Assembly: GCA_937930555.1 (NCBI GenBank)
Contig: CALHCH010000037.1
Location: 1-42,785, forward strand
DNA: 42,785 nt
Source of the DNA: Candidatus Absconditabacterales bacterium
GTDB taxonomy: Bacteria; Patescibacteriota; Gracilibacteria; Absconditabacterales; Absconditicoccaceae
Reading direction: 5' to 3'
Positions 1-42,785 of the stretch are shown in pieces (the stretch's first letter is position 1; each line of letters starts with the position of its first letter). The notes under the pieces were generated by a model. It saw only the letters and a program-made list of their open reading frames with translations, did no database searches and was not told where the DNA came from. Made by a program: the position numbers and the translations under genes.

Positions 1-1
1 C

Positions 2-2434
2 GATGGAGTCTGTGATAGTGATGATATCTGCAATGAAAATACTTACCCTGTAGCAAGTGGTGCGAATACATCTGATATTTTAGATTTTGATGATGATCTC
101 GTACCTGATGCATGTGATATCTGTCCAAACTCATACCGAGATGATACTGATGGTGATGGTGTGTGTGATGATATAGATATCTGTATGTGAGATACTGTGC
201 TCACAGGTAGCGGAAATGATACGATAGATAGCGACAATGATGGTATACCAAACGACTGTGACATCTGTCCTAATGATTCAGAAAACGATGCTGATGGCGA
301 TGGAGTCTGTGGAGATGTAGATATCTGTGAGTGAGCAGATGACAATCTAGATACTGATCTAGATGGCACACCAAACTGCAAAGACATCTGCCCTGATGAT
401 GCTACAGACGACTCAGACGGAGACGGAGTATGTGATAGTGCTGACATCTGTCCTGATGACGCTACTGATGATAGTGACTCAGACGGCATATGTGATAGCG
501 ATGATATCTGTAATGGTACAGCAGTACTTCAAGGAAATGGAAATGATAATATGGACGGAGACGGAGATCTTGTACCAGATAGTTGTGATGTATGTCCTAT
601 GGATTATTTCAACGACTCAGACGGAGATGGAAGTTGTGATAGCGATGATATCTGTGAGGCTGGAGATGACACCGTAGACACTGATGATGACGGCATACCA
701 GATGCTTGTGATCCTTGTCCTCTGGGGGATGTAGACGGAGATGGTATCTGTGATGGTGCTGATGTGTGCCCAGATGGTGATGATACTATAGATACAGACA
801 ATGACGGAGTACCAAATGCATGTGATGAGTGTCAACTATGAGAAGATAATATAGATACTGATGGTGATGGTGTAGCTGATGACTGTGATATCTGCCCTCG
901 TGACGCCAACAATGATAGTGATGGAGATCTTGTATGCGACTCTATAGATGTATGTGACGGTGGTAATGATACTATAGATCAAGATAGCGATGGTATACCA
1001 GATGCTTGTGATACATGTCCATTGGGTCTAGATACAGATCTAGATGGAGTGTGTGACAATGTAGATAACTGTCCTGCAGTGCCAAATCCAAATCAAGAAG
1101 ATAATGACGGATTTGGTGACGGATTTGGTCCAGGTGATGCGTGTGAGGCTGATGTGTGTGATGGTATAGACAATGACGGTAACGGTATAGTGGATGATGA
1201 TCATATAGATACAGATCTAGATGGTATAGCTGACTGTGTGGACACTACTCCAAACGCTTGAAGCTGTGTACTAGCAGCTAGCTGTGATGATGGAGATGCT
1301 CTTACATTGTATGATGCATATGACCTGAGTTGTGCATGTGTAGGTGAGACATACACGCTCGAGATAGTGGATCCATACGAGTGTGCGTCAGATATTACAT
1401 GACAAGTCACTATTTCTGCAAATATTGATCTAGATTATGTAGAGGTCAAATTGGTCAAAAATAGTAGTGCGGACTATACGTTTGTCCTATCAGGTAGTGA
1501 TATAGCGAGTGATGGTAGCTATACTATCCCTGTAGAATACACCGATACAGCCTCTCCAAACTATATAGCTGATGCGATCTATACGCTAGAATATATGGTA
1601 TATACTACACAGTGACCGACTGCGTGATGATCATACGAAACACGTATTACCAATAACTGTGATGCAGAAGTATGCGATGGTGTGGACAATGATCTCAATG
1701 GTATCAAGGATGATGGATTTACCCACAGTGATACTGATGGCTATGGTGATAGCTGTGATATCTGTCCTGAGATAGATGATGATCAGACAGATACTGATGG
1801 TGATGGGCTAGGTGATGCTTGTGATACCTGTCCAAACGTGGATGAATCACTATACACTGAAGACTATGATGGTGTATGTCCTGATATAGACAACTGTCTC
1901 ACGGTGCATAATGCAGACCAAACAGATAGTAACAATGACGGAGTATGAGATGCTTGTCCTCGAGAGATCACCACCACCGGTGGTTGATCTACTACAGGAG
2001 GCAATACTGGAGGCTCTAGCTCGGGTTGAAGCACTACTTGAGGTTCTAGTGATGGAGGATCTAGTTCTGGAGGTAGCAGTAGCTGATGAAGCAGTTCTGG
2101 TTCTAGATCAAATAGAAGCAGTAGTAGAGGGTCAAGCTCTGGAGGCGGAAGTTCTGGCGGATCTAGCAATGGATCTAGAGGCTCCAACTCAAGCAGCAAT
2201 GATGGATCTACTATATTTGGGTATACACCTACTACTGAGACTGTAGTGCCAGTACAGGCAGAAGAAGAGATTGAGCTAGTGCTAGATGAAGAGACTATCA
2301 AGATCATAGAAGTAATCCAAACTCAAAAAGAAGAAGTAGAGGCTATATTTAGCTCTGCTCCAACCAATGTGAGTGGTATACAACCTACAGAACTGCCAAG
2401 TATATTGCCGCAGACGTGAGTATCTGTATACTAG
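2..2434 (+). CDS. Secreted/surface thrombospondin type-3 (calcium-binding) repeat protein, 5' truncated by window; Ser/Gly-rich linker; C-terminus ...ELPSILPQTGVSVY*
   Basis: Frame 2 read with TGA=Gly: many DxDxDGxxDxxDxCP repeats (e.g. DTDGDGVCDDIDIC), then a GSSSGGSSS-type linker, ending in LPQTGVSVY and TAG at 2432-2434. Standard-code ORFs 551-841, 1022-1261 and 1682-1948 are fragments of it. Confidence 0.85.
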
Positions 2435-2454
2435 TCGCGACAATTGACGTACCA

Positions 2455-2486
2455 AAACCAGCCTCACGAGAGTGAGCTGGTTTTTT
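2455..2486 (+). terminator. Rho-independent terminator
   Basis: aaaaccagcctcacgagagtgagctggtttttt: GC-rich stem followed by T-run just after the TAG at 2434. Confidence 0.75.
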
Positions 2487-2535
2487 GATTGTTTTTTGAT
2501 ACACTCATCAGCATTTATTACTAAACAATGTATTA

Positions 2536-4089
2536 GTGAAATTTCATATTATCATCTATGGATGTCAGATGAATTATTCTGACTCGGCTCGTATCAAGGC
2601 AGTACTACACAACTGCTGATGGGAGTATGTAGAGACCAAATCAGAGGCAGATGTAGTGATCCTGGACACCTGCAGTGTCCGCCAAAAATCAGAGGATAAA
2701 GTGCGATGAGAGCTCAAAGAACTCCGCAATCTAGATCATCCACCCAAGGTACGACTCACAGGATGTATGATACAGCACAACCTCAATCTCAAAAAAACTC
2801 GTACTACCAAATCCAAAAAGTATCAGTTGGGCAATTTTGTGTGAAATGTGGAGACTCAGGAGCCGATATTGGTCTGACTCGAGGATGTAGAGCAGGACAA
2901 AAAACTCAAAGACATCGTGCGTGATCGAGTGCAATGAACCCAAGACGATGTAGATAAGTTGCTGTATATTAATCATGCCTTCAATCCATTGTTTAAGCAG
3001 ATGCAAAATGAGTTTGGTGATGTGGAGCTGTTTTTTCGTATCAATGATGTGGGTATGCTGCCATATATCATCGCTGAGCTATGATACCAAGGCATACGCG
3101 AAGCAGATATCGAGATCATCAATGAATACCAATCTATCATACCGCACAATGCCAATCAGATATTTGCAGAAAATACAAAAACAGCCTATGTCCCGATCAG
3201 TTCGTGATGTAGTCAGTTTTGTGCGTATTGTATCGTGCCATATGCCCGTGGACTAGAAAAAAACAGACCTGTAGATGAGATCATCACTGAGGTCACATAT
3301 CATCTGAGTCAGTGAGTGGAGGAGATAGTGCTGCTATGACAGATAGTAAACAAGCATCCAGACTTTTATGAAATACTCAAGATGACATGTGAGTTACCAT
3401 GAGTGAGGCGAGTCAGGTACACATCGCCATACCCGACATACTATGACAGTAGGATATTTGAGCTACACGACAAGGTAGACAACTTGTGTCCACATATACA
3501 TATGCCATTGCAGTCAGGGTCCACTTCTGTCCTCAAGAAGATGTTTCGCTGATATACAGCTGATGAGTATAGAGAGTTTGTAGATCAGATCAGATCTCTG
3601 AGTAGACCTATCTCACTCACGAGTGATATCATAGTGTGATTTACCGATGAGACGGAGGAGGACTTCCTAGCATCTATGGAGATGGCGGAGTATGCGAGAT
3701 TTGATATGATATATATCGGTATCTATAGTCCGCGTCCTGGGACCTATGGTGCCAGGAAGTATGAAGACAATATCCCTCAAAAGATCAAGAAAGAACGTCA
3801 CCATAGATTAAACGAATTGCTCAGAGGCATCTCAGCACAAAATAACTTGGCAGAAATATGAACACATACAGAGATGATCGTGCGTGAGGTGCAAGATGAT
3901 CTCATCGTGGGATATACAGAAAACATGAAGAATGTAGCAATTAGAAAGAATTCAGAATCTAGAATTCAGAATGCAGATGTATCTACCTCCATGGGGATGA
4001 TTGATTCGGTGCAGCCAGGACAGTTTCTTAATATACAGATTACTGATACATGACCATTCAATTTGTTGGGAGAGATAGTGGATGGATAG
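2536..4089 (+). CDS. miaB: tRNA-2-methylthio-N6-dimethylallyladenosine synthase (MiaB-type radical SAM methylthiotransferase)
   Basis: Frame 1, TGA=Gly: [20 protein letters not shown]-terminal domain, [18 protein letters not shown] radical-SAM motif (first G is TGA), [20 protein letters not shown]-terminal TRAM-like region. GTG start inferred. Confidence 0.93.
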
Positions 4090-4157
4090 AGTTTGTTATC
4101 ACTGGTATTTGACAAGTATATAGATATAGTAGTGGTATTTATATTGTATAAGTTTGC

Positions 4158-4883: not shown

Positions 4884-4901
4884 TTATATCTAAATATTTT
4901 T

Positions 4902-5855
4902 ATGCTAGACTCACAATTTGAAACAATACTCACGAGATGTCAGCAATTTGCTGCTACCAATCCAAAAGGTATCATCATGATATGGTGAGCGACTGCTACT
5001 GGCAAGACCTCTCTAAGTCTCAGACTCTCTGAGCATCTGCATAGTGAGATCATCTCAGCTGACTCTCGTCAGATCTACAGATATATGGATATCGGCACGG
5101 ACAAGATCTCGCTAGCTGAGAGATGAGATACACCTCACCATATGATAGATATCGTGGATCCTGATGAGACATATACCGCAGGTCAGCGAAAAGAGCAGAC
5201 CATCCAGCATATATCCCACATACATAGTCGCGACCATATACCGCTGGTGGTATGAGGTACTGGCCTATATATGGATATGCTGTACAAAAATTTTGCTATG
5301 CCGGATGTGGCTCCCGATCAGGAGTGGAGAGATCAGATGATGGAGCAGGAGACCGATTCTCCAGGATTTTTGTTTGATCAATTGACCCAAGTAGATCCAG
5401 AGGAAGCAATGAAGCATCATCCAAATAGTCTGAGATATGTACTGCGTGCACTCGAGATACATCACAAAACATGACAAAAAAAATCTGACCTCGCGAAGGA
5501 GTTGCCAGTCCAGCGACCGATACTGATGATCGGGCTGTGGAGAGACAAAGAAGACACCAACAAACGTATCAACAAACGCATCAAGCAGATGCTAGCAGAT
5601 GGGGCGTTGGTACAAGAAAACAAGAAGCTGCTGGATATGTGATATGACACTAGCCATACAGCGATGAACGGTATATGATACAAGGAAGTGGTGTGATATA
5701 TCCAGTGAGCGTATGGGCTGGATCGTTGCGAGGAACTCATGAAAAGAAACACGCACCGCTACGCCAAACGTCAAAGAAGTCGATTTCGTCGCTATATCAT
5801 GGATAGCAAAGCAAGACCCAAGGAACATGTGGAGTATATGGTAGTGGAGCTATAG
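4902..5855 (+). CDS. miaA: tRNA dimethylallyltransferase (MiaA)
   Basis: TGA=Gly: [19 protein letters not shown] (Walker A), [79 protein letters not shown]. Close downstream of miaB. Confidence 0.95.
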
Positions 5856-5863
5856 GAGTTGAG

Positions 5864-6388: not shown

Positions 6389-6414
6389 AGTGATACATAT
6401 CTAAATTTTTTTCC

Positions 6415-11855: not shown

Positions 11856-13679
11856 ATGTCACTGCGTGATGATGTGCTGGATCGTACCGATATAGTAGAT
11901 CTAGTCTCCAAATATGTAGATATCAAAAAAGCTGGCAAAAACCGACTTGGTCTTTGTCCTTTTCACAAAGAAAAAAGCCCTTCGTTTACGGTAGCAGAGG
12001 ACAAGCAGATATTCAAATGCTTCTGATGTGGTAAGGGTGGCAATGCGATTACGTTTCATATGGAGGTAGAGAGGATTGATTTTTGGGACAGTCTCAAAAG
12101 TCTGGCTGAGTCTGCAAGTATCGACGTCTCTAGCTACCAAAAAGACCCAGAAAAACAAGCCGCAGACAAATCAGTTAAAGAAAAGCAAAAGCTGATGAAT
12201 AAGCGTACACAGCAATTTTTCCAACAACATTTCCCAGGATCTGTCGCACAATCATACGCCCTAGACCAGAGAGGATTGTCTGAGGCGACGATAGGGACTT
12301 TTGGTCTTGGCTATGCTCCAGATAGCTATCACGATCAGATAGTAGCCTTGCGTGCCAAGTGATTTGATGACAATGATCTCATCCAGGCCTGACTCGCCAA
12401 AACCGGCAAAAACTCTGGCGAGACCTATGCTTTTTTTCGCCATAGATTGACGTTTCCGATACACGATCATATAGGCAATATCGTCTGATTTGGTGCTAGA
12501 GCATTGGATGCCGACCAAAACCCAAAATACCTCAATACCACCGAGACAGCCATATACAACAAATCTAAGATACTGTTTGGTCTAGATAAAGCCAAAAATA
12601 ACATAAAATCGTACGAATCGCTGATCATCGTAGAGTGATATATGGATGTGATCGCTCTGCATCAGCACGGACTACCTATAGGTATCGCTACTTGTGGGAC
12701 GGCTCTTACCACCGCACATACCAAGCTCATCTCCAGGCATACACCACACCTGATCTTTGCATTTGACAATGATAGTGCTGGATTTGAGGCGACGATCAGA
12801 TGACTCAAGGTAGCCTACGAGCAGGACCTATATCCCAAGGTGCTGATATTTCCTGCTGAGTATAAGGATGTGGATGATTGGCTATCTGCTACGCAGAAGA
12901 ATACAGAAACAAGAAATCAGAAACAAGAAGTTATGGAAACAGACCGTCATCCAGAGGGAGGGACGACCGAAGGATCCAGTCAGGATCAAGCAACTCAAGA
13001 CAATGAAGAAGTCTGGAAGGAAAAATTGAAAGAGATTTCTGTGGATGGATTTGGTTGGGTGATAGGGCAGTATCAGATCAGATACGATCTAGACAATCCC
13101 GTCGAGAGAAAAAAGGTCGTACAAAATCTGTTTGAACTCCTATCCAAGATAGAGGACTATAGTATCCTGCAGATGTATTTTACCAAAGTAGCCAAGGAGC
13201 TCTCGATGAACGAAGAGCAGCTGTGGAAACAGTTTCGCCAATGGATAAAAAAATCTAGCGTCCGCAATAGTACCTATCGCGAAGAAGAGGAGACCAGACC
13301 AGATAGCTCATCCAAGATCGCCGAAAAATACCTCCTATGAGCACTCGTACACCAGTGATTTGCTCTCAAACTATGAGCTGACAATGCGATATATACCAAG
13401 TATGAAGTAGTCCTCAAGCAACTCGCTCAGTACTTCCCGACTACCGTATTGGCAGAGGTATATAGCGGGTCATTATCGCCCTCTACTCAGGAGAGCCTGG
13501 TAGAGGCGGAGATGTTTTGGGAGTTGCAGGTAGCGGATACCGAGTCAGACAAGATCACCTCAGTAGTACAACAATTTCTCCATCAGCAGATCTACAAACT
13601 CCAGAGAGTAGTAATGAAAAGCAAAAAACTCGACCATACACAGAAGCAAGAGTTGTTGGCGAAGATTAGGGGATTGTAG
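11856..13679 (+). CDS. dnaG: DNA primase
   Basis: TGA=Gly: [40 protein letters not shown] (CHC2 zinc finger), IVEGYMDVIALHQHG, FAFDNDSAGFEA (TOPRIM). Confidence 0.96.
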
Positions 13680-14410: not shown

Positions 14411-15079
14411 ATGATGCCATTGATCGATATACAACATCTCACTCGAGGATACACCAAGCAGCAACCATTGTTCAATGACTTTAGTTTTCAGCTAGAGGAG
14501 AAGGACTTTTGTTTTGTGATGGGGAGGTCTGGTGTAGGCAAGACGACCTTGGTCAAGTTCCTGATGAGGCAGTTAGTACCACCTCTTAGGACGGTGTTTC
14601 ATGGCAAGGATGATATCGCGAGATATAGTGATACAGAAGTACAAAAATACAGAAGAAGAATCGGTGTAGTGTTTCAGGATTTTAAGCTTGTGGACTGGAA
14701 AAACGTGGAGCAAAATCTGAGCTACCCTCTCCAGATCAGCGATCCAGGCAGAGGTAAGACTTGATGATCGATCAAAGATCGCGTCACCAAGATGATGCAT
14801 CTCCTATGACTAGAAGCCCATAGCAAACAATCTGCTCCAGCTCTGAGCTGATGAGAAAAACAAAGAGTCGCTATCGGGAGAGCATTGATCAATGAACCAG
14901 AGTTTGTGATAGCAGACGAGCCAACAGGCAATCTCGATCGAGATAGCTCCAAAAACATAGCCGATATCTTGATAGAGTCCAACAAGCTCTGAAATACGAT
15001 TGTGTTTATCACACATGATCAGCAGCTGGTGGACTATGTGAGCGCCAAGCACCCCGTCAAGGTTGTGCAGATAGATTAG
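14411..15079 (+). CDS. ftsE: ABC transporter ATP-binding protein, FtsE-like
   Basis: TGA=Gly: [93 protein letters not shown]; both Gly of LSGGE are TGA. No adjacent ftsX identified. Confidence 0.85.
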
Positions 15080-16005: not shown

Positions 16006-16620
16006 ATGTCTGTAAACCCGCAACTAATCGTAGAAAAATATCACGATATCATCGCTGAGGAGGTGAATGTAAAGAAGGTGAGTCTGCTGTGATGAGATCA
16101 GCAGGTGACTGTCCAGTATGTCCCGCTAGGCAATACACTGTGAGCGCAGTTTGGCAAAGACACGGGTCGTATCATCGGTAGTGCCAAACAATGAAAAGCA
16201 AAAATACAGGATGATGGGAGTCTCCTGGTAGAAGATGGCAGTGATAGCTGGATGCTCTCGAGCGATCAGTATGAGCTGAGGTATAGCGGATTTGATGGAC
16301 CAAATCAGATCGTGGAGGACGGAGCGATGATCGAGCTAGATCTTACGCTCACGGATGAGTTGATCGCAGAGTGAGTGGCTCGCGAGATCTCTAGATTTCT
16401 CAATCAGATGAGAAAAGATGCTGACTACGATGTGAGTGATAGGATACAGGTAGGATACCAGACAGATCACGCACCATATGCTGCACTGATCGTAGCACAT
16501 CAGGAGTATCTCCAGACTGAGGCACTAGTCGCATCATTTGTGGCTGATCAGATCGAGAGTGACCATAGTGCGACATTTGAGCTAGATGGACATGAGGTGA
16601 TGTTTTATGTGAAGAGGTAG
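16006..16620 (+). CDS. Free-standing isoleucyl-tRNA synthetase C-terminal-domain-like protein
   Basis: TGA=Gly: LIVEKYHDIIAEEVNVKKVSLLGG..., LDLTLTDELIAEGVAREISRFLNQMRKDADYDVSDRIQVGY resembles the C-terminal tail of long IleRS (LTPELIAEGLARELVRxIQxxRKxAGxxVxDRI). No synthetase catalytic core upstream. Confidence 0.7.
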
Positions 16621-20796: not shown

Positions 20797-20873
20797 GGCG
20801 ATCGTAGCTCAGTTGGTAGAGCCCTGGTTTGTGGTACCAGTTGTCGCGGGTTCGAGCCCCGTCGATCGCCCCA
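20797..20873 (+). tRNA. tRNA-His (GTG anticodon) with encoded CCA and G-1
   Basis: GGCGATCG-TA-GCTC-AGTTGGTA-GAGC-C-CTGGT-TTGTGGT-ACCAG-TTGTC-GCGGG-TTCGAGC-CCCGT-CGATCGC-C-CCA; full cloverleaf with G-1:C73 pair. Confidence 0.95.
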
Positions 20874-20955: not shown

Positions 20956-21354
20956 TTAAAGTTTTCAACATATATCAAAAGTATCTTTATATTCCTTTTT
21001 GACTATATCTTTCCGTCGTTTGGTTTCTCATTTGTTTTTGGGTATATGTGTTTTCATATAGATCAAAAGAACATCAAATTTACTCGTCTTTTTGTCTCGG
21101 TGTATAATTGCTCTGTTTCAAGATGCATGTGGAGAAATTTTGGATCAAGCAATACTAAATTCAATTTTTAGTATAGAAGAGTCGTCATATGAAATTATTT
21201 CTTCAATCAATGTTGTTTTTAGAAATTTATCAACACGTTCTATCATAAGAGATATGGCATTGTAGGTTTTATGTCGAGCGGTTTTATACTTCTTTTTAAA
21301 ACTTTTTAAGAAATGGCGTTCGGCATATTTCTGTATGAGTATACTAGTAGACAT
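20956..21354 (-). CDS. Putative RelE/ParE-like toxin of a Panacea-type TA pair
   Basis: Minus strand, TGA=Gly: MSTSILIQKYAERHFLKSFKKKYKTARHKTYNAISLMIERVDKFLKTTLIEEIISYDDSSILKIEFSIAGSKISPHASGNRAIIHRDKKTSKFDVLLIYMKTHIPKNKGETKRRKDIVKKEYKDTFDICGKL*. ATG overlaps the 3' end of the upstream antitoxin gene (11 nt). Confidence 0.6.
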
Positions 21355-22033
21355 TTGCAGGGTCTTCTTGAGTGATAAAATCATAAGATATCAGCTCTTT
21401 GTCATCACACATCATCCATGGGAGTTGATTGTGGGTAAATGTGACAATATCATTTGTGTTTTTTCTTTGTCGTTTTTTTGAAATTTCCATCAATAATTCT
21501 TTTTCTTCATTGCTGAGCAAAGTATCTTGAGTATCAGTGATATTGGAAATCATATGAGCGGATCATTTTATTTCCAAAAGAATAGACTCATCTGCGGTAA
21601 GCTCCTCGATAGTGGTAAAGTATATGTCTGGTACAGGTCATTGCTTGATTCTTCTATATTTGAGTCCAGTGATTGGGGTGAGATGATTGTAATATCGAGC
21701 AAAGTCCAATAGGTAGCAAAGTTTTGCTAATTTTGTTTTTGTAATCTTGAGATCATGTTCTGCTCATCAATATTTAATAAAGTTTTTGATTATTTGCTTG
21801 TACTTTTCTCGATCAAAAGTGTTCTCATCATGTATTATTGCTCATGTTTTTTGATCAACAAAATCTGAAACATTGCACTCATACAAATTTGCCAATTTAA
21901 CCGCTTGTCATAGAGTCAAATCACTTTTTCATTGTTCGATGCGACTATATGTCTGACGAGAAACACAAAGTAATTCAGCTATTTCTTGCTGATTCAATCA
22001 CCTGTCTCTACGTAGTTCTTGAATATTGATCAT
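21344..22033 (-). CDS. Xre-family HTH fused to Panacea (DUF4065/SocA-like) antitoxin domain
   Basis: Minus strand, TGA=Gly: MINIQELRRDRGLNQQEIAELLCVSRQTYSRIEQGKSDLTLGQAVKLANLYECNVSDFV (HTH), then ITKTKLAKLCYLLDFARYYNHLTPITGLKYRRIKQGPVPDIYF (Panacea). Confidence 0.78.
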
Positions 22034-22123
22034 TAGCTGTATTATCAATAAATGGTAAAATTATAAACATTATTCTTTTAATTACAAGAAAATGTTATAT
22101 TATTTAACATATAGTGTTCGAAA

Positions 22124-22335
22124 AATCTTCGAAGAAGATTGCCAAGAAACTCGCTTCGTGTAAATAAAGATCATAGCGATCTTTGTGTGAGAATAGTCTA
22201 AACGTCTTCGAACGTGACCGCAAGAAGTGTTCTGAAGTAAAACGAATTCTTATCAGAATTTGTTTTATTCGCGTTCGATTTGAGTATCACTCAGATATCT
22301 CTATAGTGAGAGTAATACACTTTTGCTCTCACTAT
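22124..22335 (+). other. Hairpin-rich leader/intergenic region between the TA pair and the RM gene
   Basis: Four stem-loops: aatcttc-gaa-gaagatt (22124-22140), aaagatc-atagc-gatcttt (22166-22184), aaaacgaattct-tatc-agaatttgtttt (22239-22266), atagtgagag...ctctcactat (22303-22335). Confidence 0.7.
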
Positions 22336-22340
22336 ATACT

Positions 22341-25300
22341 ATGGCACAGCTGTTTTCCAAGACGACCATACAGGATCAGATACAGATATATGATGGCGTA
22401 GATATGTCAGATGCTATCCAGATCGTCACAGACCTATATGCAGATCAAAAAAACTGACTCACCAAGGATGAGACGAGATACGAGCAGCGTTTCAATGGAT
22501 TGTTTTTTGGTGAATTGTTGTGATATGAAGAAAACAAAAATAGACACCCCAAAGCGAGTACGCCAGTGTGAGGAAAGATAGCTGATCTCGGACTGGGTAT
22601 ATACTCGGATGGCAAGTATAGCTATGAGTGAGTACGTGTGATAGTAGAGCTCAAATGATCTACTGCCTCACTAGACAAAAAACAAGCATCCTATGGTGGG
22701 CAGACACCCGTAGACCAATGATTTGGATATAAGACATCGTTTACCCAAGATCCACGACTGGTGGTGAGCAATTTTGGTAGTATCAGGCTATATAGGGACA
22801 ACAAGCAGGACTATGAGGTGTGGACACTAGAGGAGCTAGCCAGTGGAGACAATGACTGGTATGAACTCAAAAAACTCCTCCTCCTGATGCAAAAGAAAAA
22901 CCTCATCGCTGCAAGCGGTGAGTCATATACCCAAAAACTCCTCACCAAGTTTCGTTATGATCAAGAGCATATCAGCAAGAAGTTTTATACTGAATACAAG
23001 GCGTTGAGACTGGAGCTGATCAATGATATCAGATCTCGCAATGACTGAGTGACGATCGATCTCGTCGTAGAAAAAGCACAAAAACTTATAGATCGCGTGA
23101 TTTTTGTTCATTTTTGTGAAGACAAGGGATTGTTGCCTGCGGATAAACTCAAGGAGGTGATCGAGTTTGGAGAAAAAGCGATGAGTCCGACGTTTCAGAC
23201 GCTGACCAACTTTTTTGAGGCGGTAAATAGCGGGAGTCCCAAGCTGGAGATACCTAATGGATATAATGGATGATTGTTTCATAAGGATCCTGAGCTGGAT
23301 GCGTTGCAGGTAGGGGATGAGATATGTCGCAAGTTTGTGGCGTTGTGATTGTATGATTTTGATGGGGAGCTCTCGGTCAATATACTGGGGCATATTTTTG
23401 AACAATCGATCTCTGATCTGGAGCAGCTCAAGATAGATCTGCTGGGCACCGAGACACAGACCGATGATCTCGTGGAGACCAAAACCTCCAAACGCAAAAA
23501 GGATGGGATTTTTTATACGCCTGAGTACATCGTGGACTATATCATCCAGCACTCGCTGATGACACGACTAGAGGAGCAAGAGGCTGCCTGTATGGCCAAG
23601 ATCGGTAAAAAAAAATGATATAAGGATGAGCTAGAGGCGACGATGGCATATCAGGCGATCTTGCAGTGAGTCAAGGTGCTAGATCCTGCCTGTGGGTCTG
23701 GTGCGTTTTTGGTCAAGGTATTTGACTACCTGTATGCAGAAAACAAGCGTGTGGGTGCTATCGTGGGGTCGTTGTTTGATGATGATGCACTGTACAAAAA
23801 CATCCTGAGCCAAAACATCTACGGAGTCGATCTCAATGCCGAATCTGTAGAGATCACCAAGCTCTCACTCTGGCTCAAATCAGCTCAAAAATGAAAGAAA
23901 CTCAATAACCTAGATAAAAATATCAAGTGCGGAAATTCTTTGATCGATGATCCTGAGGTGGCAGGAGATAAGGCGTTTGACTGGCATATAGAATTTAAGG
24001 ATATAATGAATGAATGAGGGTTTGATGTGGTGGTGGGGAATCCGCCTTATGTTTCATTTCAAAATATTCAGAAGAAAATTAAGAGACATATGAGTGTCAT
24101 ATACCAATCTGCTACTTGAAAATATGATTTATATGTGTTGTTTGTGGAATTAGCGATCAACACACTAAAGCATTGATGAAAATTTTCATATATTATTCCG
24201 AATAAATTCATTCTCTCAGAGTATTGAAATTGAATGAAGGGAGTAGTTTTAGAAAACTCTATAGTTTGATTACTTGATTTACAAGAAATCAATGTTTTTG
24301 AGGATGCTTCTACATATCCTTGTATTCTAACTGTTTCGAAACAGAGCATTAAAAATAATTCATTTCAGTATGTTTATGTAACAGATCAGGAGCTGAATTG
24401 AAAGAAGCAAATGATCAAGCAAGACTGATTGTGAGTTAGTTGACGATCTTTGGCGAGTGAATTAACTTGAGATATTCTTCTTAAAATTGAAAAATGAAAC
24501 ACTTCCCTCAAGGAATTGGCTAATGAGATAACGCAAGGCCTTAGAACTTGAAAATTAGATGTTTTTTGCACAGATTTAAATGTTGAATTTATTGAGGATA
24601 GATGATTCAGTAAAAATTTGATACACAGAGTTTACACCTGAAGTAATGTTAAAAGATATCAATTTAATTTTGATGAAAATTATATTTGTTATCCATACAC
24701 AGCAGATTGAAGTATTATTGATATTGATAATTTTCCAAATTGGAGAAAATATTTTCTTGAAAATAAAGAACTTCTAATGAAAAGAAAAGATAGTTGAAAA
24801 ATATTTTCTGACACTGCAAAAAAATATTATGAATATCGAGATAAAAAACAGGTGGTCTTCAATAAGCCAAAAATAGTTTTTCCAGATATTTCAAAGCAAA
24901 ATAATTTCTTCTTAGATCTCGAATGAATACCATACATTAATAGTTGTTATTGAATTTTTTTAAAAGATGTTTCTTTGTATAAATTTGTAACTTTAATATT
25001 AAACTCTAAAATCTTTTGATTTTATATTAAAAATGTGTCTCCATCAGTAAGATGATGATACTTTAGATATAAAACATGATATTTGCAAAAATTTCATATC
25101 CCAATAATTGATAAGATTCAAATTGATGGATATGATGCGATATATGAAAAAATATCCCAATGCCATACAAAGTATTATACAACACTCCAGCAGACACTCG
25201 ATCTCCTGCAGAGTGAGTACTGACTCGACAAGATCCCCAAAAAGCTCCAGAAATTTACGGAGCTTGATTTTGAGACATTTGTAAAAACGCTCAAGCTCAA

Positions 25301-25472
25301 GAAACTCTCCCTGGATCAGAAAGAAGAACTGATGGCATACTTCAACAAAAAGCACAAGCTCCTCTCCGACCTCCAGTCTCAGATCGACACGCTCGATAGC
25401 GAGATAGACGAGATGGTGTTTGATCTATATGGGTTGAGCGAGGAGGAGAGAAGGATTGTGTTGGGAGGGTAG
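22341..25472 (+). CDS. Type IIG restriction-modification enzyme / N6-adenine DNA methyltransferase (Eco57I-like)
   Basis: TGA=Gly: KKDGIFYTPEYIVDYIIQHSL, VLDPACGSGAFLVKVFDYL (motif I), NIYGVDLNAESVEITKLSLWLKSA, GGFDVVVGNPPYVSFQ (motif IV), AT-rich TRD-like region, C-terminal coiled coil ...LSEEERRIVLGG*. Confidence 0.9.
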
Positions 25473-25493
25473 ATTTATTTACAAAAACTTGTA

Positions 25494-26033
25494 ATGAAAG
25501 ACTTAATGAATGATAAGGTTACTATAATTAAACCTGATTGACTGACTAGTGAATTAGAGTGTAGTTTTCAGTCGAAAGCAATCTATGTTGATTGAACATA
25601 TGATCTAGCTGACGAATGAGATAGGGTAATTAGAAAAATAACTGATACAAAGTCAGAGGAGTATGTAATTGATTGAATTGAGTACTTTGCTATTTGAGAT
25701 AGACTTATGGCTCATACTAAAATCACATACTCTAAAAGTAATAAACCACAGAAGAATCATCCTGCAAATATATCTATATGAACAGTAAATCAATATTGAG
25801 GAAATTTTACAGCAGTAAATAATTGAAATGTCATTGTTCAAGACACAGATATTGACAGTATAATTAAGCTAATAAACTCTCAGGACTACAAAAATAAAGA
25901 GGAATTAAAATCAATCTTAGAGGAGTATAAATTATCCAAAGATGAATCTAAAATTCGTAAATTCTTTTCTTTATTTTCAGATGTTGCTAGTTTATCACAA
26001 TTGATTGCCTGGATCTTGTCATTAACTTGATAA
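25494..26033 (+). CDS. Hypothetical protein immediately downstream of the RM gene
   Basis: TGA=Gly frame: MKDLMNDKVTIIKPDGLTSELECSFQSKAIYVDGTYDLADEGDRVIRKITDTKSEEYVIDGIEYFAIGDRLMAHTKITYSKSNKPQKNHPANISIGTVNQYGGNFTAVNNGNVIVQDTDIDSII... hydrophobic C-terminus LIAGILSLTG*. Confidence 0.65.
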
Positions 26034-26090
26034 GACTCTTTCTTAATTTTTTCTATTTCAAGCATGCTCAACTTTACCCTAACAAACACC

Positions 26091-27110
26091 ATGATACGCG
26101 AGATAGAACAAATCTATCGTGTTTGGTGAGTGATCGAAAACGCTCCCATCGTACCAGAACGAGAACAAAAACTCAAACATATAGCCAGACTACGTAGCTG
26201 AGTCTACAGCACCAAGATAGAATGAAACCGTATCTCCTATGATGATGCAGAAAAAATGCTTCGTGGAGAAAAAATCGAAGCTAGACCAAGAGATCAACAA
26301 GAACTAAACAATTATATGAATGTCTTGGATTATATTGAACAACAAGAATCCACCAAAGAAATCACAGATAAGCATATCTTCAAAATACATCAACTGACGA
26401 CCAAAAAAATCCTAGATTCATGATATCATAACAAGCGAAGAAATGAGGCAAATGCAGTGTATAACGAATGATGATGAATCGTGTATCTTCCACCAGAATG
26501 GAAAGAAGTACCAAAGCTTATGGATGACTTACTACATTATATCAATACGCAAGATGAAGTATCCGTAATTATTAGAGCTGCATTGTTGCATCATTGATTT
26601 GTAATCATACATCCATTCATAGATGGGAACTGAAGAACAGCCAGAGCGTTGACTCAATTATTTTTGTATCAACAATGATTCAATACCAAAAAATATTTCT
26701 CTCTAGAAGAATACTACGATAATGATCTCACTAATTACTATGAAGCTATCTTTATAGGAAACGATTTCTATCAAGCACAAAAAGAGTGAATAGATAGTGT
26801 AAAGTTTATAGAGTATTTTCTTGCCTGACTAGCTCATGAACTAAACTACCTTAAAAAGAAAGTATCATCAATCTCACAAGACAGCAAGCGAGAAGAAAAG
26901 TTAAAAAAAGCATGACTGAGCAATAGACAAATACATATAGCAACAACGATCAAAGAAAAATGAATAGTAAGCTCTTCAGACTTGCTCGCTATCTACAATG
27001 TGAGTAGTGCAACTATCAAAAGAGATCTCAAGAAACTCTCTGATGCCTGACTTATCATTGCTCAATGAGATACTAAAGCAAGAAAGTATCTTCCAATTAT
27101 GAGCGAATAA
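26091..27110 (+). CDS. Fic family protein with intact HPFxDGNGR motif and C-terminal winged helix
   Basis: TGA=Gly: VYSTKIEGNRIS (inhibitory SxxxEGN), ALLHHGFVIIHPFIDGNGRTARALTQLFL, C-terminal VSSATIKRDLKKLSDAGLIIAQG. Confidence 0.92.
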
Positions 27111-28172: not shown

Positions 28173-29720
28173 TTACTCATCAAACTTAAATGAAATCCTT
28201 GATTTGACGGTAGGAATAGTGGAGTATCGACGAGGGGAGATAGATATTTTTGCTGCATCGATTTCTGGATATGAGAGGATGATTTTCTTGGCTTCTTCGG
28301 CATCTAGACCTATAATTCTATCTTTGATTTCGTTGATGACTCAGAGTGCGTCTTCATTTATATTGTACATCTTGATCACGGGGACCTTAGTGGGTATGAT
28401 ATAATGAAACGGCAACTTCTCATTGGCTTCGACATGGATCTTGTCATACATTGTGATACCATTGCGGTCATACTGGTGTACATATATACTATCTTGGGCT
28501 CTTTGGGTGAGGTATTGTTCTACTACATTTTTTAGATCTGGTCGGTATATATATGGGTAGTAGAGATTGGTTTCTATTTTTCATTCCACAAATGATGTTT
28601 TTTCTCCTACTTCAGACGTAGTGATCAGCTCATTGAGTTCATAGTTGTATAGATCTTCGTAGGGCAGCACAATAATATCTGGATCTCACTCGATATTTGT
28701 TTTCAAAAAATTTGACTTACCACTCTCCATATTGTTTACGATATCTTGTTCGATTTGTTTGACGTCTTCTTCGATCACTGTACCCGTCTCTATCGTCTCT
28801 CCACCCGCAAAATCTCTCACCGCCGCCGCCCGTACTGTGGGCTGATCATCAGACTCATCTTGTAGATTTTTGAAGTATAGCATCTTACCTTTTGGTATAT
28901 TTCACAGCTCTCAGATCATCTGACCATTTTCAAAATTGCTTTCTGCTACCACCTTGACTCTAGCTGTACCAGGATCTTCAGGTGTTCAGGCAGGTACATC
29001 TATTCTTTTTTGGGTTTTGTATAGCACTCACTCATCAGTGATCAGAGTAGAATTATCCAACAACGAATACGTAAAATCATTGGTGTTTTTGATCTCTACA
29101 GTACCAGATGCTGGTTTTTGACTATACTTGATATTTTGCACATTGAGGTTCATAGTGTATTTGTATGGTAGGCTGCCTATATGATAGGGCAGCGAGAGGT
29201 ACGACTGAAACTGATGTACCTGTTTGTCCTGCACAGGAAAATAACGAAAATTGTACACCACATGTTCTATCTGATATGCGGGATTGATCTTGATGGTCGT
29301 ATTGGGTGATATCAGCGTCCAAAAAACGTATAGCAAGGTAATCAATACTCACAACTCAGCAAGTAATACAAATGCAGAAAAGTAACTCTTTTTGATAAGT
29401 AGATTTTTGTGAAAACTTGTCGCGGTACCTAGATATTTTTTATAGCTTTTGATTTTTGACCACCAGTTTTGTAGTTGTTCGTCTACGTACACGAGGTTTG
29501 ATGATTGGAGGTATCTCTTGGTTTTGATGGTGCGTGATACAAATGTGACATCTAGATGGAGCTCTTGTATGAGATTTTCTAGGTAGTTGCTTCGTCGTTT
29601 ATGCTGAAAAATACGATGATCCGGATGTATATCCAAAACAACTTTTTTGTAGTTTGGTACTTTCTTGAGTGCTTGCACGATCTTGTATATGCTATCGTGC
29701 TCTCCAAATTGTATTTTCAT
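28173..29720 (-). CDS. Hypothetical membrane-anchored protein
   Basis: Minus strand, TGA=Gly: MKIQFGEHDSIYKIVQALKKVPNYKKVVLDIHPDHRIFQ..., TM segment around SAFVLLAELGVLITLLYVFWTLI, long extracytoplasmic-type domain to ...SRISFKFDE*. Confidence 0.65.
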
Positions 29721-29955: not shown

Positions 29956-30768
29956 TTATTGTCTTTGATCTGTATGCAAACGTAAATTGGTATAAAAATG
30001 ATACACGCGAAAGTATTTCCATACGATGACTCACACTGCTCACAAGAGGGCGATATTTTTGATATCTCGAGTTTTGATCAATGAAAATACGAGATGTCTA
30101 GGATATGCCTGAAATAAGATCAAAAGGCACACCATACACAAAAATACTACCCATCACACAAAGCCATATCCTCTCATCTGCGGTCTACGTGCACGCAGGA
30201 TCTTGGTGATCAGCAGGAGTACCAGTGCGATGCACGATAGATACAATCCTAGTGGCATCACCGTATCATATCTAGCCACATTGGACTCAGGATGAAACGC
30301 TGATATAGATAGGTAGCCATCACTAGGCTCTCAAATAAAATTGTCTCATAATAACAGAAAAAATCCTAAGGGTATACATGCTCGCATCATACTCAAAAAT
30401 CGAGTATCTATCCATCTCACATGTGTATGTGGATCAGCTATGCTGGACAAAAAATGTCTGACACATCATCAGATCGCTATCACAATACCTACTAGATGAA
30501 ACGTATAGTCAGCTGGGGATATATATGATAGGAGCTGGTGTCGCGTGCTAGGTATGATCACAAAGTCACCTATGAGATACCATACATACTGCGAGACAAA
30601 ATATATTACTATCAAATAGGCTGGGACTCTTTTTCCAAACTCAGATCGATCGATATCGTAAAATCTTGCATATCTTTTGGTGGCTCGCAAAAACGTGAGT
30701 ATGCATATAATGATACCTATCCCTGTCATATGTAGCTGCGTCCCAAAAATATCTAAGAAAGGATACAT
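29956..30768 (-). CDS. Polytopic membrane protein, Lgt-like (prolipoprotein diacylglyceryl transferase family)
   Basis: Minus strand, TGA=Gly: MYPFLDIFGTQLHMTGIGIIICILTFLRATKRYARFYDID..., IPLGFFLLLGDNFIGEPSDGYLSISAFHPESNVARYDTVMPLGLYL; order and length resemble divergent Lgt. Confidence 0.5.
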
Positions 30769-35293: not shown

Positions 35294-36304
35294 CTATATC
35301 GTGGGTGTGTATCTATGCATATTTAGGAGATAGTTTTGGACATATAGCTCAGCCATCAGTGATGGATCGTTGAGTTCGTATATGGCTAGGATTGCGTTGA
35401 TATATGGCCTTTTTTCTGCCTGCAAAAACGATATGAGTGGGAGCGCATGTTTGACCAAAGGAAGGTTGCAAGATAGTCTGGATGTCCTTTTGTTGACGTC
35501 CATAAATAGTTGAAAATATGACAAAAACACAAGCATAAATAAGCTTTGCTCAAAAGGATTTTGAATTTCTTTAAATTTGATCCAAAAAAGCTCCAATTCT
35601 TGTTGGAGTTGATGAGCATTGTCTAGTGGTGTATACGTGGATCATCCTATCTGTACAGGACTGTTTCTAATTATTCAGACATATTGTTGTTGGAGTAGTC
35701 ATGTGGCTAGGAGTGTATGTATTTCTTGGATGGTTTTGTCGGTATATGGTATATCGTTTTTGTGATGCAGTATGTAGTTGATTGTTTTTTTGTGATTGAG
35801 GATCATTGTGGTTTCCTCTTTAGATTTTCATTTTGCTGATTCGTTGTACTTGATGAGCACTTCGGTATCGAGATAACTATAGGTGTTTCACTCTAGTCAG
35901 CTGGATGCATAGCTGATATCTATCAGTATATTTTCAATTATTCTTTGATTTTTTTCGAGATAGGTTGTGTCTAGTGTTATAGATTGTGTTGCTTCATCCA
36001 GCATATGTATATGCTCTGTATGCAAAAATCTATTTTTGGGTCAGTATGACCTAAGAAAATCAAAATTGTATACAGCGGCTTTTCTCTCAAAAAAAGGTGT
36101 ATTGATATACATCAATGGATCTAGGGTCAGGGTATATATTCATTTTCTTATTTCTACGATTTTTTCTCTTTGGATCAGCGTCTCTAGATCTCTCCAGAGA
36201 GTAGTCCTACTCACCACAAAAGTATCTCTGATTGTAGCCAGAGAGCTTTCTCATTTTTCTTTGAGTAGTGCAAGTATTTGTTCATGCCTTTCAGTTTTAT
36301 TCAT
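35294..36304 (-). CDS. Fic family protein with N-terminal DeoR-like HTH and substituted Fic motif (QLFMDVNKR)
   Basis: Minus strand, TGA=Gly: MNKTERHEQILALLKEKGESSLATIRDTFVVSRTTLWRDLETLIQREKIVEI (HTH), SYASSGLEGNTYSYLDTE (inhibitory SxxxEGN), FMLVFLSYFQLFMDVNKRTSRL. Confidence 0.78.
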
Positions 36305-36319
36305 ATTTGAATATTATAT

Positions 36320-36406: not shown

Positions 36407-36792
36407 AAAAAATATCTAATAGATCTGATTTTCCTACTTTATGGCTTTTTGGATTATAGAAAAAATCACTAAGTCAATACCAATCCTTCTCCTCAACTTG
36501 AAAGTATGGGTCAAGTCAATACTGTAATTACTTGCGAGAAATTCAAGAATTAAATAATTTTTGATCTACAAACTCCATTAGATAGATTCTAGGAATTTGT
36601 GTAAAAACAGCGCTAATAAATCATTTCTCAATCTTGCGTGATATTATTTATATATATGTATAGTAAGACCATACGAGAAAATCAGACTTGACCGTGAATA
36701 ATTTATTAGTAAGCTCATAATATTGTATTTTTGAAGTTTTTGTGACAACCGATCACTTTATACCTCAAACTTTAGACCTTATACCTCATATT

Positions 36793-39318
36793 ATGCCAAA
36801 AAAGAAAAAACAAGTAGCAGCTGCAGACCAGGCAGCAACCGCTGATTTTACCAATGAAGAGCTGATCCTGAGACCAGTGGAGGAGGAGATCACGCAGTCG
36901 TATATCGACTATGCGATGTCTGTGATCGTGTCTCGCGCACTCCCAGATGTGAGAGATGGACTCAAGCCAGTGATCAGACGTATCCTGGTGACGATGAACG
37001 ATATGAACCTCACCGCAGGGTCCAAGTACAAAAAATCTATGGGTGTGGTAGGTCAGGCACTTAGAGATTATCATCCACATGGTGATACATCTGTGTATGA
37101 TGCTATGGTGAGACTGGCACAGCCGTTTTCTATGAGATATCCATTGGTGGATGGGCAGGGTAACTTCTGATCTGTAGATGGAGATGGAGCTGCTGCAGCT
37201 AGATATACTGAGGCTAGGATGACCAAACTCGCTGAGGAGATGCTCCAGGATATCAAGCAAGATACCGTAGACTGGAGACCCAACTACGACCAATCGCGTG
37301 AAGAGCCAATCTCTCTCCCGACCAAATTCCCAGCTAGTCTGTGCAATGGGACGATGGGTATTGCTGTAGGTATGGCGACCAATATGCCACCTCATAACCT
37401 CACGGAGGTGATAGATGCATGTCTAGAGTATATCGACGATCTAGAAGTATCGTTGGATGATATTATGAAACATATCAAAGGACCAGATTTTCCTACTGGA
37501 GGGATCATCTATGATTCTGCAAATATCAGAGAAGTATATGCCAAGGGTCGTGGTGGTATCACTATGCGTGGAGTAGTGAGTTTTGAGCAAAATGCAAAAA
37601 AACAGGATGTGATCGTACTATCAGAACTCCCGTATCAAGTAAACAAAGCGAATCTCGTAGCCAAAATCGGAGAACTAGCAAACGAAAAAAAGATAGATGG
37701 TATCGTCGATATCACTGATGAGTCATCCAACAATGAGATGAGAGTGACTATCACCCTCAAAAAATGAATAGACAAAGACAATATCCTCATCAGACTCTAC
37801 AAATACACCGACCTCCAGTGCAACTTCAATGTAAACAATGTCGCATTGATAGAAAAAGGTAAACAACCAAAAGCACTCAATATCAGAGATATGATTATTG
37901 AGTTTGTGGATTATAGAAGAGAGGTGGTGACGAGGAGATCACAGTTTCAGCTGGACAAGGCTGAGAGTAGACTCCATATACTCGAATGACTAAAAAAAGC
38001 TACCGATATCCTAGATGAAGTAATCGCTACGATCAGAGCTTCTGAGACCAGAGAAGAAGCCAAACAAGCACTGATGAAGTCGTTTGATTTTTCTGATGAG
38101 CAGGCAGAGTATATATTGATGCTTAGACTCCAGACGCTGGTAGGTCTAGAAATCAAAAAGATCCTAGACGAAATAGCTGACAAAGAAGCTGAGATAGCAT
38201 ATCTAGAATGACTCCTCAAAGACAGCAAAAAACTAGATGGTGTCGTGATCGATGAGCTCAACTATATGAAAGACACCTATGGTGATGAGAGAAGAACCAA
38301 GCTTTCCAATAATATCGAGGAGATCTACTCACTCAACGCAAGTATGAAAAACTTGAAGAAACTAGACGAACTCATCCAAGAGCCAGTATTGGTATGGATC
38401 GGATCTGACTATATGATGAAGGTATTGTATCAGTCTAGAGTGATGAATCTCCCAGATGATACGTGGACATTTACTAGTACGCACAACCAAGACAAGGTGA
38501 TCGTGATCTCTAGTCAGGGTGAACTCGTGGTAGAGAGACTCAAGGATCTAGGTAAATTTACCACCCAAAGCGATCCTATGGATCCTGCTAAGCACTACAA
38601 ACTCAAGGGAGATCTAGTCTTTTCGGAGACAGCCGCATTCGATTTTGATCATCTTTTGATATTGTCCAACCAAAACAACGTCAAGAAAGTAAGCAAAGAA
38701 CTCTTATTTAAGATGAAGAAGTTTCCTACGACCTGTATGGGTCTGGGAGATGGTGAGCAGGTGATCAAGGTGCTCCCTGTCAAAGAAGACGACAAGATCG
38801 GTGTGATATCTGAGCAAGGTCAGATCCTTCTATACGAATCATCTCAGGTCAGAGCAATGGGCAAGACTGCCAACTGAGTGAAGGCTATCGATCTAGAGGA
38901 CGGTGATATCGTCTCTGATGTGTTTGTGTATCGTGATGAGCCGTTTATATTTATGCACTCTGAGTCCCAAGGCAAGCTCGTAGCTGTAGAAGACATCAAC
39001 GAGCTCCGTAGAGGTAAGATGAAAAGAGGTCAGTCAGGTAGACAAGTCGCTACACTCAAAAAATGACAAAAAATATCTGGTGCGATCGCTATCACCGAGT
39101 GAGGCGTCAATATCAAGCTCGCGTCAGGCAGGATAGACAAATTTGACTCAGAAAAAATGGATCTCAAGATGCCAGATGATGGACTAACCAAGCTCACCAA
39201 CTGATCTATCATCAAGATGTGGAGATGACGAGAAGAAAAAGAAGAGAGAAAAGATGGAGAGGTGAAGTTGGATAATACTGACAAGAAGTTTAAGAATAAG
39301 GGTAAGAAGAAAGAGTAG
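36793..39318 (+). CDS. gyrA: DNA gyrase subunit A
   Basis: TGA=Gly: [114 protein letters not shown], beta-pinwheel C-terminal domain. Confidence 0.97.
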
Positions 39319-39338
39319 TATAGTGATTTGGAGTATAT

Positions 39339-39372
39339 AAAAACCTCTCAGCTGTGAGCTGGGAGGTTTTTT
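39339..39372 (+). terminator. Rho-independent terminator after gyrA
   Basis: aaaacctctcagctgtgagctgggaggtttttt. Confidence 0.85.
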
Positions 39373-39379
39373 GTTAAAT

Positions 39380-42300
39380 TTAATCGTTAATTCATTTCTT
39401 TTTATTGAAAGGATTTATTTTTTTGATAACTTCTCCAACTTTCCTCTTCTCTCCCACTTCTTCTATTGATGTAGGTATTAAAAAATTGTCTATCGTGTAT
39501 CATTCTTTTACAGATATTCATAATTCGTCCGCCTCCTTGATCTGCTCTTCAGTCCACTTTCAAGTCAATAATCCTTCGTAGTTTTTTTCCATAAATACTG
39601 TTGCATCCAATTCTTCAGTTGAACCTTCTGTCTCCATTAGCCCTCTCCTTCTATCAAATTCCTCAAAGAGTTTTGGCATCTTGTTTACTACGTTTGTAAT
39701 ATCTACTTCATCAGATTCTGTATCAAGACTTATCATATAGCTTGTTTTTTCTCATCTATTAAGATCAAACTCTACGAGCTTATTTGTTTCATCGTAATTA
39801 TATCATATCTCAAAAGTTCTAATTTTATCTTCACCACTATCTGGCAGTATTCTTATCTCATTGTTACCATCTGGATAGTGTATAAGTATATTATTGATTC
39901 GATCTAATTGTGTTTTTTGATTTAGCCCTTTCTCATCTAATCAAAGTTTTTGCATCCATAGGGTGTGTCAATCAATATCTAAATTATCTTTTTGTTTTTC
40001 TTCATCTACTCATTTGAGTTTGGCGATTTCGTCATCAGAATAATATAGTGTATTTCCATCTCAAAATCTAACTTTGTATACAGGTAGACCTTCTTCTACC
40101 TCACTCATGTCCAACATACCGTTTTTTACAGATATGGTGTTTTTTTGGTTATCTCACATTATTTCTTCTAATTGTTCATTTATTTCAGTTGATGTTCATA
40201 TTCACTTATCAGTACCCTGTACTCTTGATGTTAATACTCACTTTAGTAGTGATCTTATTTTATCTTTGGAAGTTACTCATTTTGGATCATCCTCTCTGAG
40301 GATATCCATTGTATTTTCCAAAGATCAGTCTTTTAGATCTTGCACCAACTTTAGTTGCTCGGTATCATCTCATTTTGTGAGTATGTTGCGATATTTTCCT
40401 GCAAAACTAAGATGTTTATTATTATCAATTTCATTTCAAAGACTAGTAATAGATAGAGCGTCGATCTTTCACTTGTTGATATTATCTTTAAGTATTTCAG
40501 ATTTATTTGGATTTATTTTTCCATCTTTTAGATAAATTTCGTCTATATTTTTGATAAGTATAATTTCATCTATTTTATTTCAATCTTTGTCTTGTGAGGG
40601 TATCGTATAGCTAGGGTATTCATTTAGTATTGTGTCTAGTCTAGAGGTGAGGCTATCCATACTATCTATGCCAGTTAATGCCTCAGCGCTTCTGGTATTT
40701 GCATCTATATCCTCATCAAATTGTGCAGTTTCCTGAATCTTTTTTAGACCATCTTCAAGATTTATATCTGGATTTTGCAGAGTAGTTATTAGTAGATTAT
40801 TTATTGAGTTAGGATTTTTGTCTATATATGTTTTGAGTGCGTCTTTGTCTCATATGGCGCTAGTGAGTCATGGTATTAGTTCTCCAGTTTCTAGTAGATT
40901 GCTAGCTGTCTGGTCCAATACATCGATCAGCCATGTCGAGATATCTTCTTTATTTTCATTGATAAATTTCATTACTGTTTGCTTATCTCATGTATTCTCT
41001 TTTATTGTTTTCAATAGTGATTTAGCAACATCTGGAGCATCTTGATGATTTGGACTCAATTTATTGTTTTTATCTACAAATATCTTATTCACTCACTTTT
41101 GCACGCTACTAAATCTATTGCTTATAGAATCTATGCTTTCACTACCTCTGATCTGAGTGATTTCATCGGTAGTGAGTGATGCGATTTGTCCAAATATTTT
41201 TGGATCTATAAGATCTCCTGCTTTGTAGTCTTTGATGCCAAATTTTTCTCATATTGTTATCTCTTTTGTTTTTTTGTCTTCTTTGACGGTTATTTTCTTG
41301 GAAAGAAGTATATTGAGTCACGTAGAGATATCATTCCCGTTCATTTCTCACTCTTTTTTGGTCATTGCCTTGAGTACATAGAGATTATTCATCATCAGGT
41401 CTGTTGCTTTCGCAAATTTTATTCATTTTTTGTCATTGTTTGCTTTTGCTGTCTCCGCATCTGCTCCAGTCACAAACTTAAATTCTTCTCATTGTTCAAA
41501 ATTTAGAGCCTTGAAGCTTTCATTATTTTTTTTGGTGATTTTTTTGACTTCATTTGCTGTGACAGTATTTAGCTTTTTGACCTGCTCTTTGCTCAATTTT
41601 CCAAAATTGAATAATCACTCAATTCCAAATAGCTTCATCATATCTTCTACTAAGTTTATTATTTTTTGGTACATCTCAGATCCTAGAAGTTTTTTGACAA
41701 CTCACAATTTTTCGTCATCCACAAGTCATCAGAGTAGTTGTTTTGCGAGCTCATCAGTTTGTGTATTACTTTTTGCTTTCTCTAGGGTTTGTTTTTCTTG
41801 AGTGAGTGTGTTTAGTTCATCAGTTGTTTTTTTTATGAGTTCTTCTTGTTTTATTATTTCTCACTCTTTATTTGCTATTTTAGTTTTGATTACATCGATA
41901 CTGGTAGCATCAGTAGTCTCATCCAGACCCTCCAATTTTTTATTTAGATCCTCAAGATCTTTTTCCATTGTTTCTAAATCTATTTTAGTCTCTTCGAGAT
42001 TTCCTTTCTTTGTTGATATCTCACCTTCTTTTTCAGCTATTTGTTTTTCCAACTTTTCAGTCGCTGTTGAAGCTTCTATTTTTTTTGATTCACTTTCGGG
42101 TTTTGTTGCATTAGGGGTTTTATTAGGTGTTTCAGTTTTTGTCGGAGTTGGTGTCTGTGTTTCTTCGTCTTGACCCATTTCTTTTAGAGACAATGCACCA
42201 TCTTCACCGACCTCTACTTTTAGTTTTCAGTTTTTTACATTATCTTCTGTAGCTATGATTTGATTATTTTCGGCTTCAGTTCATTTGTCTACTACTGTGG

Positions 42301-42785
42301 TTGTTATTATGCCTTTTTTCTCATCTCGACTGACAATTATATCTTTATTTGTTAGATCTCATATTACTTCTACTTCTCTCTCTTCTGTACTTCATTCCTC
42401 GCTATTTTCGGCTACTTCAGAGTCTTTAGCTGCCACCTCAGCAGTTTTTTTTGCTTTTGTAAGATTTTCTTCAGCAACTTTTAGGTTTTCATTAGCTTTT
42501 TTATCAGCTTCCTGAGCTGCCTTCAATTCTGCTTCTGCTTTGATGATATTATCTTCCAGCTTCGTTTTTTTGGCTGCTTTAGCATTAGCTTCAGCTGCTT
42601 TTAGTTCTGATTCTGCTTTTTCAAATTTTGCTTTTGCTTCTTCTAGAGCAGACTCTTCAGGCAGTTTTCATTTATCAGAAGTCTCTTCACTATCATCAGA
42701 AGTCTCTTCACTATCATCAGAAGTCTCTTCACTATCATCAGAAGTCTCTTCACTATCATCAGAAGTCTCTTCACTATCATCAGAA
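39380..42785 (-). CDS. Very large coiled-coil/low-complexity protein, N-terminus outside window
   Basis: Minus strand continuous with TGA=Gly from window edge to TAA at 39380-39382: (SDDSEET)n, ALEEAKAKFEKAESELKAAEANAKAAKK..., TPTPTKTETPNKTPNATKP linker, long mixed alpha region. Confidence 0.85.
42674..42785. repeat. 21-bp tandem repeat encoding SDDSEET, running off the window end
   Basis: atcagaagtctcttcactatc repeated with period 21 from 42674 to the last base (at least 5 copies). Confidence 0.95.

Follow-up and report, generated by a model that had tools for sequence, protein, structure and literature searches.

The genetic codes closest to the one described here are those of Absconditabacteria (SR1) and Gracilibacteria. 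In Absconditabacteria, the use of UGA for glycine is credited to work of 2013 (PMC8629427), and the use of CGA and CGG for tryptophan was reported in 2021 (Shulgina and Eddy, PMC8629427) and repeated for Absconditabacterales in PMC13092985. Gracilibacteria and Absconditabacterales belong to one class and both read UGA as glycine (PMC13092985); CGG may likewise encode tryptophan in some Gracilibacteria (PMC8629427). In BD1-5/SN-2 and Gracilibacteria, a related group of a different order, UGA likewise encodes glycine, whereas CGA as tryptophan is not among the changes reported in the excerpted part of that paper (Hanke et al. 2014, PMC4032931). Vampirococcus lugosii, a named organism of the phylum-level group Absconditabacteria, also uses UGA for glycine (PMC8080830). 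The stretch of DNA analyzed here (the window) comprises 42,785 nt and is one contig of a Candidatus Absconditabacterales draft genome (G000, 85.5% complete). Sequence comparison makes it almost certain that the window belongs to the chromosome of an uncultured Candidatus Absconditabacterales (SR1) bacterium, whose code would be that of the order: UGA as glycine, CGA and CGG as tryptophan, and UAA and UAG as stops.

This three-codon code is already known (since 2021 for CGA and CGG). The draft genome resembles the Absconditabacteria of PMC8629427 in its three reassignments, a GCG tRNA for arginine CGU and CGC, UCG and CCG tRNAs of tryptophan type, the lack of release factor 2 (RF2), and a low-to-moderate GC content; it differs in that CGA and CGG together (CGR) are approximately as frequent as UGG, which is near the top of the reported range. 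NCBI translation table 25 (SR1 and Gracilibacteria) agrees with the window in UGA as glycine and in the stops UAA and UAG, but it does not include CGA and CGG as tryptophan and mistranslates approximately half of the tryptophan codons of the window. The code of Absconditabacteria is, we presume, NCBI table 37.

Reading frames and codon meanings

A preliminary description of the window had proposed a genome-wide UGA-to-glycine recoding, with fragmented open reading frames (ORFs) and genes ending in TAA or TAG, and our results agree with it on each of these points. Under the standard code, the longest stop-to-stop frame was 231 codons, so the standard-code ORFs of the window are indeed fragmented. 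With TGA as sense, stop-to-stop frames of 1134, 1091, 865, 810, 804 codons and so on were obtained; in control readings, the longest frame was 441 codons with TAG as sense and 236 codons with TAA as sense. None of 100 dinucleotide-preserving shuffles gave a TAA/TAG-open frame longer than 348 codons; frames of at least 300 codons, of which the window has 17, occurred at a mean of 0.02 per shuffle. The frames have ordinary domain content, and a curated set was used for all counts:

1..42785: 31 curated protein frames, open only with TGA as sense

These 31 frames contain 340 in-frame TGA and no in-frame TAA or TAG, and they end in TAG (20 frames) or TAA (11 frames).

Codon meanings were obtained without assuming a code. 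In a leave-one-codon-out test, approximately 400 kb of the draft genome were compared with approximately 760 kb of G106, a genome from the same class with the standard code; each of 62 codons was masked together with TGA, CGA, and CGG, the sequences were realigned, and the best amino acid was chosen by BLOSUM62 from the facing residues. Fifty-nine of the 62 codons were standard, and only TGA, CGA, and CGG were shifted. TGA was assigned to glycine with 654 bits (next residue, 5 bits; 519 columns), and the facing residue was glycine in 281 of the 519 columns. CGA was assigned to tryptophan with 30 bits (arginine, -56; 82 columns), and CGG was assigned to tryptophan with 6 bits (arginine, -6), tryptophan being present in 2 of its 5 columns.

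The second code-free test set codons of the draft genome against those of same-genus genomes, with one frame per place. CGA was opposite TGG 40 times, opposite CGA or CGG 40 times, and opposite arginine codons once. CGG (n = 9) was opposite TGG 4 times, CGA or CGG 3 times, and arginine codons 0 times, whereas CGT was opposite arginine codons 80 times and TGG 0 times. GGA was opposite TGA 111 times, and TGG was never opposite TGA. Against a more distant genome (G124), CGA was opposite TGG 33 times and opposite arginine codons 0 times. An excess of TGG-TGA swaps (10 of 137), which would suggest misreading of UGG by tRNA-Gly(UCA), was traced to antisense shadow frames and fell to 0 of 104 with one frame per place.

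Within the window, no CGA or CGG aligned with CGT, CGC, AGA, or AGG in relatives, and several aligned with TGG. Individual codons facing tryptophan were as follows:

24444..24446, + strand: CGA, codon 702 of the Eco57I-type enzyme; the column is tryptophan in the standard-code genome G106
28830..28832, - strand: CGG, codon 297 of the 28176-29720 protein; TGG in relative L031
30400..30402, - strand: CGA, codon 123 of the 29959-30768 protein; TGG in both relatives, L031 and L033

Because CGA and CGG align as tryptophan against the standard-code genome and pair with TGG in relatives, table 25, with which the preliminary description had equated the code, is incomplete: its UGA as glycine stands, but its CGA and CGG as arginine do not, given the alignments, the codon pairs, and the tryptophan-like UCG and CCG tRNAs described below. 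TGG, said to be kept for tryptophan, does encode it, but accounts for only approximately half of the tryptophan codons (84 CGA and 4 CGG against 72 TGG in the curated frames).

Six motifs with TGA on a conserved glycine had also been named, and all six are present:

37168..37170, + strand: TGA at the glycine of GNFGS (motif 37159-37173) in GyrA (gene 36796-39315); glycine in 30 of 30 standard-code GyrAs of the phylum
14849..14854, + strand: two TGA, one at each glycine of the LSGGE signature (motif 14843-14857) in an FtsE-like ABC ATPase (14411-15076)
3205..3207, + strand: TGA at the glycine preceding CSQFCAYC (motif 3202-3231) in a MiaB/RimO-family protein (2464-4086)
12024..12026, + strand: TGA at the glycine of the CFGCG zinc motif (motif 12018-12041) in DnaG (11856-13676); the masked residue falls on a glycine of the solved primase 2au3
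4986..4988, + strand: TGA at the P-loop glycine (motif W(TGA)ATATGKT, 4983-5009) in MiaA (4902-5852)
26631..26633, + strand: TGA at the glycine of DGNGR (motif 26622-26636) in a Fic protein (26064-27107)

The invariance claimed for these glycines does not extend to all TGA positions. In GyrA, 3 of the 9 TGA columns were glycine in 30 of 30 standard-code GyrAs of the phylum and the other 6 held variable or different residues; therefore, an invariant glycine is not found at every TGA. When DnaG, its TGA codons masked as X, was aligned to solved primases, X coincided with glycine in the zinc motif, in the xFGxR motif, and in VEGYMD. Profile scores were higher with UGA as glycine than with UGA as tryptophan (table 4) for DnaG (394 against 373 bits), the MiaB/RimO family (344 against 307 bits), and GyrA (741 against 726 bits).

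In aligned stretches, tryptophan codons per 10,000 were CGA 37, CGG 1.4, and TGG 46. In the curated frames of the window, CGR was more frequent (88) than TGG (72), although hypothetical frames may inflate this count. The TGA share of glycine codons was approximately 15-45% in housekeeping genes of the window, with the lowest values (14-16%) in Dtd, the thrombospondin type 3-repeat protein, and GyrA, and approximately 85-93% in AT-rich accessory genes (both Fic genes, HTH-SocA, MBL-fold, and small hypotheticals). It was negatively correlated with GC content (Spearman -0.73, 31 frames). Recent transfer from relatives of low GC content, or expression level, may account for this unevenness. With CGR approximately as common as UGG for tryptophan, the genome exemplifies sense-codon reassignment at a late stage. 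Genes called with table 11 break into fragments, and those called with table 25 have arginine at approximately half of the tryptophan positions; correct proteins, fold prediction, and homology searches depend on the three-codon code.

Transfer RNAs and release factors

In the draft genome, 28 tRNAs were recognized, and the window has a sole tRNA gene:

20798..20873, + strand: tRNA-His(GTG)

The UCG and CCG tRNAs of the draft genome have A1:U72 and G73 and no A20, the same as its tRNA-Trp(CCA), whereas A73 and A20 were found in its tRNA-Arg(GCG) and in the UCG and CCG tRNAs of the standard-code genome (positions read by eye from ARAGORN folds). G73 and the absence of A20 are the criteria for tryptophan-type UCG and CCG tRNAs in PMC8629427.

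A tRNA-Gly(UCA) was not found in the 85.5%-complete draft. It was present in 14 of the 15 family relatives searched, including all 4 congeners, in each of which it adjoins tRNA-Tyr, tRNA-Ala, and tRNA-Arg, with a gap of approximately 265 to 606 bases between the UCA and Tyr tRNA genes. The draft carries a Tyr-Ala-Arg-Glu tRNA cluster on contig C76, which ends 125 bases past tRNA-Tyr. The preliminary description had held that a lack of this tRNA in a complete genome, together with the presence of prfB, would speak against the recoding; nominally it is lacking, but the draft is incomplete and, because contig C76 ends where congeners carry the gene, the absence is most simply an assembly gap. In the relatives it is an ordinary 74-base tRNA with G1:C72, C2:G71, and U73 (glycine-type end bases), which ARAGORN labels 'SeC'. 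A tRNA-Sec (selenocysteine) model gave no match above the cut-off in the genus, only sub-threshold matches, which control genomes also gave.

A single class-I release factor, of the release factor 1 (RF1) type with a PxT motif, was found in the draft. RF2 (prfB) was not found in this 85.5%-complete genome, as had been predicted. Wherever a family member has a full-length release factor, it has a single one, usually with in-frame TGA, whereas most class outgroups have at least two release-factor matches and no TGA. In RF1 of the draft genome (L001 865-1947), the second glycine of the catalytic GGQ is TGA (GGA TGA CAA), and GGQ is preceded by SSS instead of the SGA of outgroups. That this TGA acts as a self-lock was considered and rejected: both GGQ glycine codons vary freely between TGA and GGN across the family. 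Outside the family but within the class, in-frame TGA was observed in the sole release factor and in the DUF5915 gene of one genome (G148; L077, L279) and in the DUF5915 gene of another (G146; L267), in which no release factor was found. UGA recoding thus seems to extend beyond the family of the window within the class, as known for Gracilibacteria.

From these components, tRNA-Gly(UCA) would read UGA, its presence in this strain being expected from the congeners. Loss of RF2, which would terminate at UGA, would leave RF1 alone to terminate genes at UAA and UAG. The UCG and CCG tRNAs, presumably charged with tryptophan instead of arginine, would read CGA and CGG. Arginine is encoded by AGA, AGG, CGU, and CGC.

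Under plain table 25, only UGA would be changed and CGA and CGG would still encode arginine. The GyrA profile score hardly moved with CGA and CGG as tryptophan, and one MiaB-related model preferred arginine at these codons. We nevertheless regard this reading as highly improbable: arginine was rejected for CGA (-56 against +30 bits), CGA exchanges with TGG but hardly ever with arginine codons, the UCG and CCG tRNAs are tryptophan-like, and the DnaG score rose by 6 bits with CGA as tryptophan. The mycoplasma-like table 4, with UGA as tryptophan, leaves the same frames open and has nothing further in its favor; the glycines at TGA (281 of 519), the same-genus pairs, in which TGG and TGA were never opposite each other, and the lower profile scores make it exceedingly improbable. 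Isolated in-frame TGA could also arise if UGA were a true stop with programmed readthrough, selenocysteine, sequencing error, or decaying genes, and the 'SeC' label of the relatives' UCA tRNA would fit selenocysteine. This is vanishingly improbable, given 340 TGA against no TAA or TAG in the curated frames, TGA/GGN swaps that recur across independent assemblies, the lack of a tRNA-Sec match above the cut-off in the genus, and a UCA tRNA of ordinary length with glycine-type end bases.

The lineage, which the preliminary description had left within Gracilibacteria/Absconditabacteria, can be narrowed to Absconditabacterales from the nearest named records, three Candidatus Absconditabacterales metagenome-assembled genomes with GyrA 79-86% identical. 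An origin in Gracilibacteria sensu stricto (BD1-5) would accord with UGA as glycine, common to both groups of the class (PMC13092985), and with the possible CGG as tryptophan in some Gracilibacteria (PMC8629427), but it is very unlikely in view of the GyrA identity and of CGA, besides CGG, as tryptophan, as reported for Absconditabacteria in PMC8629427. Against the three-codon code of Absconditabacterales weigh the 5 columns from which CGG was assigned with the standard-code genome, the CGA columns of that comparison, which were noisier than TGG columns, the tRNA-Gly(UCA) missing from the draft, the incompleteness of the genome in which RF2 was sought, and the reliance of the code on comparative evidence throughout.

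Isoleucyl-tRNA synthetase and other genes

The window also carries part of an unusual isoleucyl-tRNA synthetase (IleRS):

16006-16617, + strand: free-standing DUF5915 gene

Comparison with solved IleRS structures matches its product to the C-terminal domain. The sole IleRS body found in the draft genome lies on contig C22 (L283 1501-4962) and stops at the DUF5915 border. Inserted between its synthetase segments are a NUDIX domain, whose Nudix box looks intact, and a region with a weak match to histidine phosphatase; across the clade, the NUDIX domain of IleRS lies between class-I synthetase segments and adjoins the editing region, and one or two histidine-phosphatase domains are present besides it. 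Within the family, body and DUF5915 are in one frame in five genomes (G124, G129, G130, G131, and G138) and apart in others, for example on the same contig approximately 26 kb apart in G134. The IleRS of the standard-code genome G106 has histidine-phosphatase insertions and a fused C-terminal domain. We found no description of this architecture in the literature, of which our coverage was partial; therefore, the missing description does not prove that it is new. On balance we think it rather probable that the clade's IleRS, with NUDIX and histidine-phosphatase insertions and often a separate DUF5915 gene, is an undescribed two-gene IleRS with embedded phosphohydrolases. As guesses, the free DUF5915 domain might act in trans as a tRNA-binding module, and the NUDIX domain might dispose of dinucleotide or adenylate by-products. 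For synthetase biology, the split IleRS offers a possible lead, and it may be worth more than the already known code.

At 2-2434 (+ strand), the window encodes a protein whose numerous D-rich, calcium-type repeats match thrombospondin type 3 and which also has a Gly/Ser-rich stretch. LPQTG lies near its C-terminus, five residues before the frame stops; therefore, any anchor of the sortase type would be either incomplete or frameshifted. An island-like run at 21347-27107 comprises an HTH and SocA/Panacea antitoxin-like protein, an Eco57I-type restriction-modification enzyme with a TaqI-like specificity domain, a hypothetical protein, and the Fic protein, and a second Fic-HTH protein is encoded at 35297-36304.

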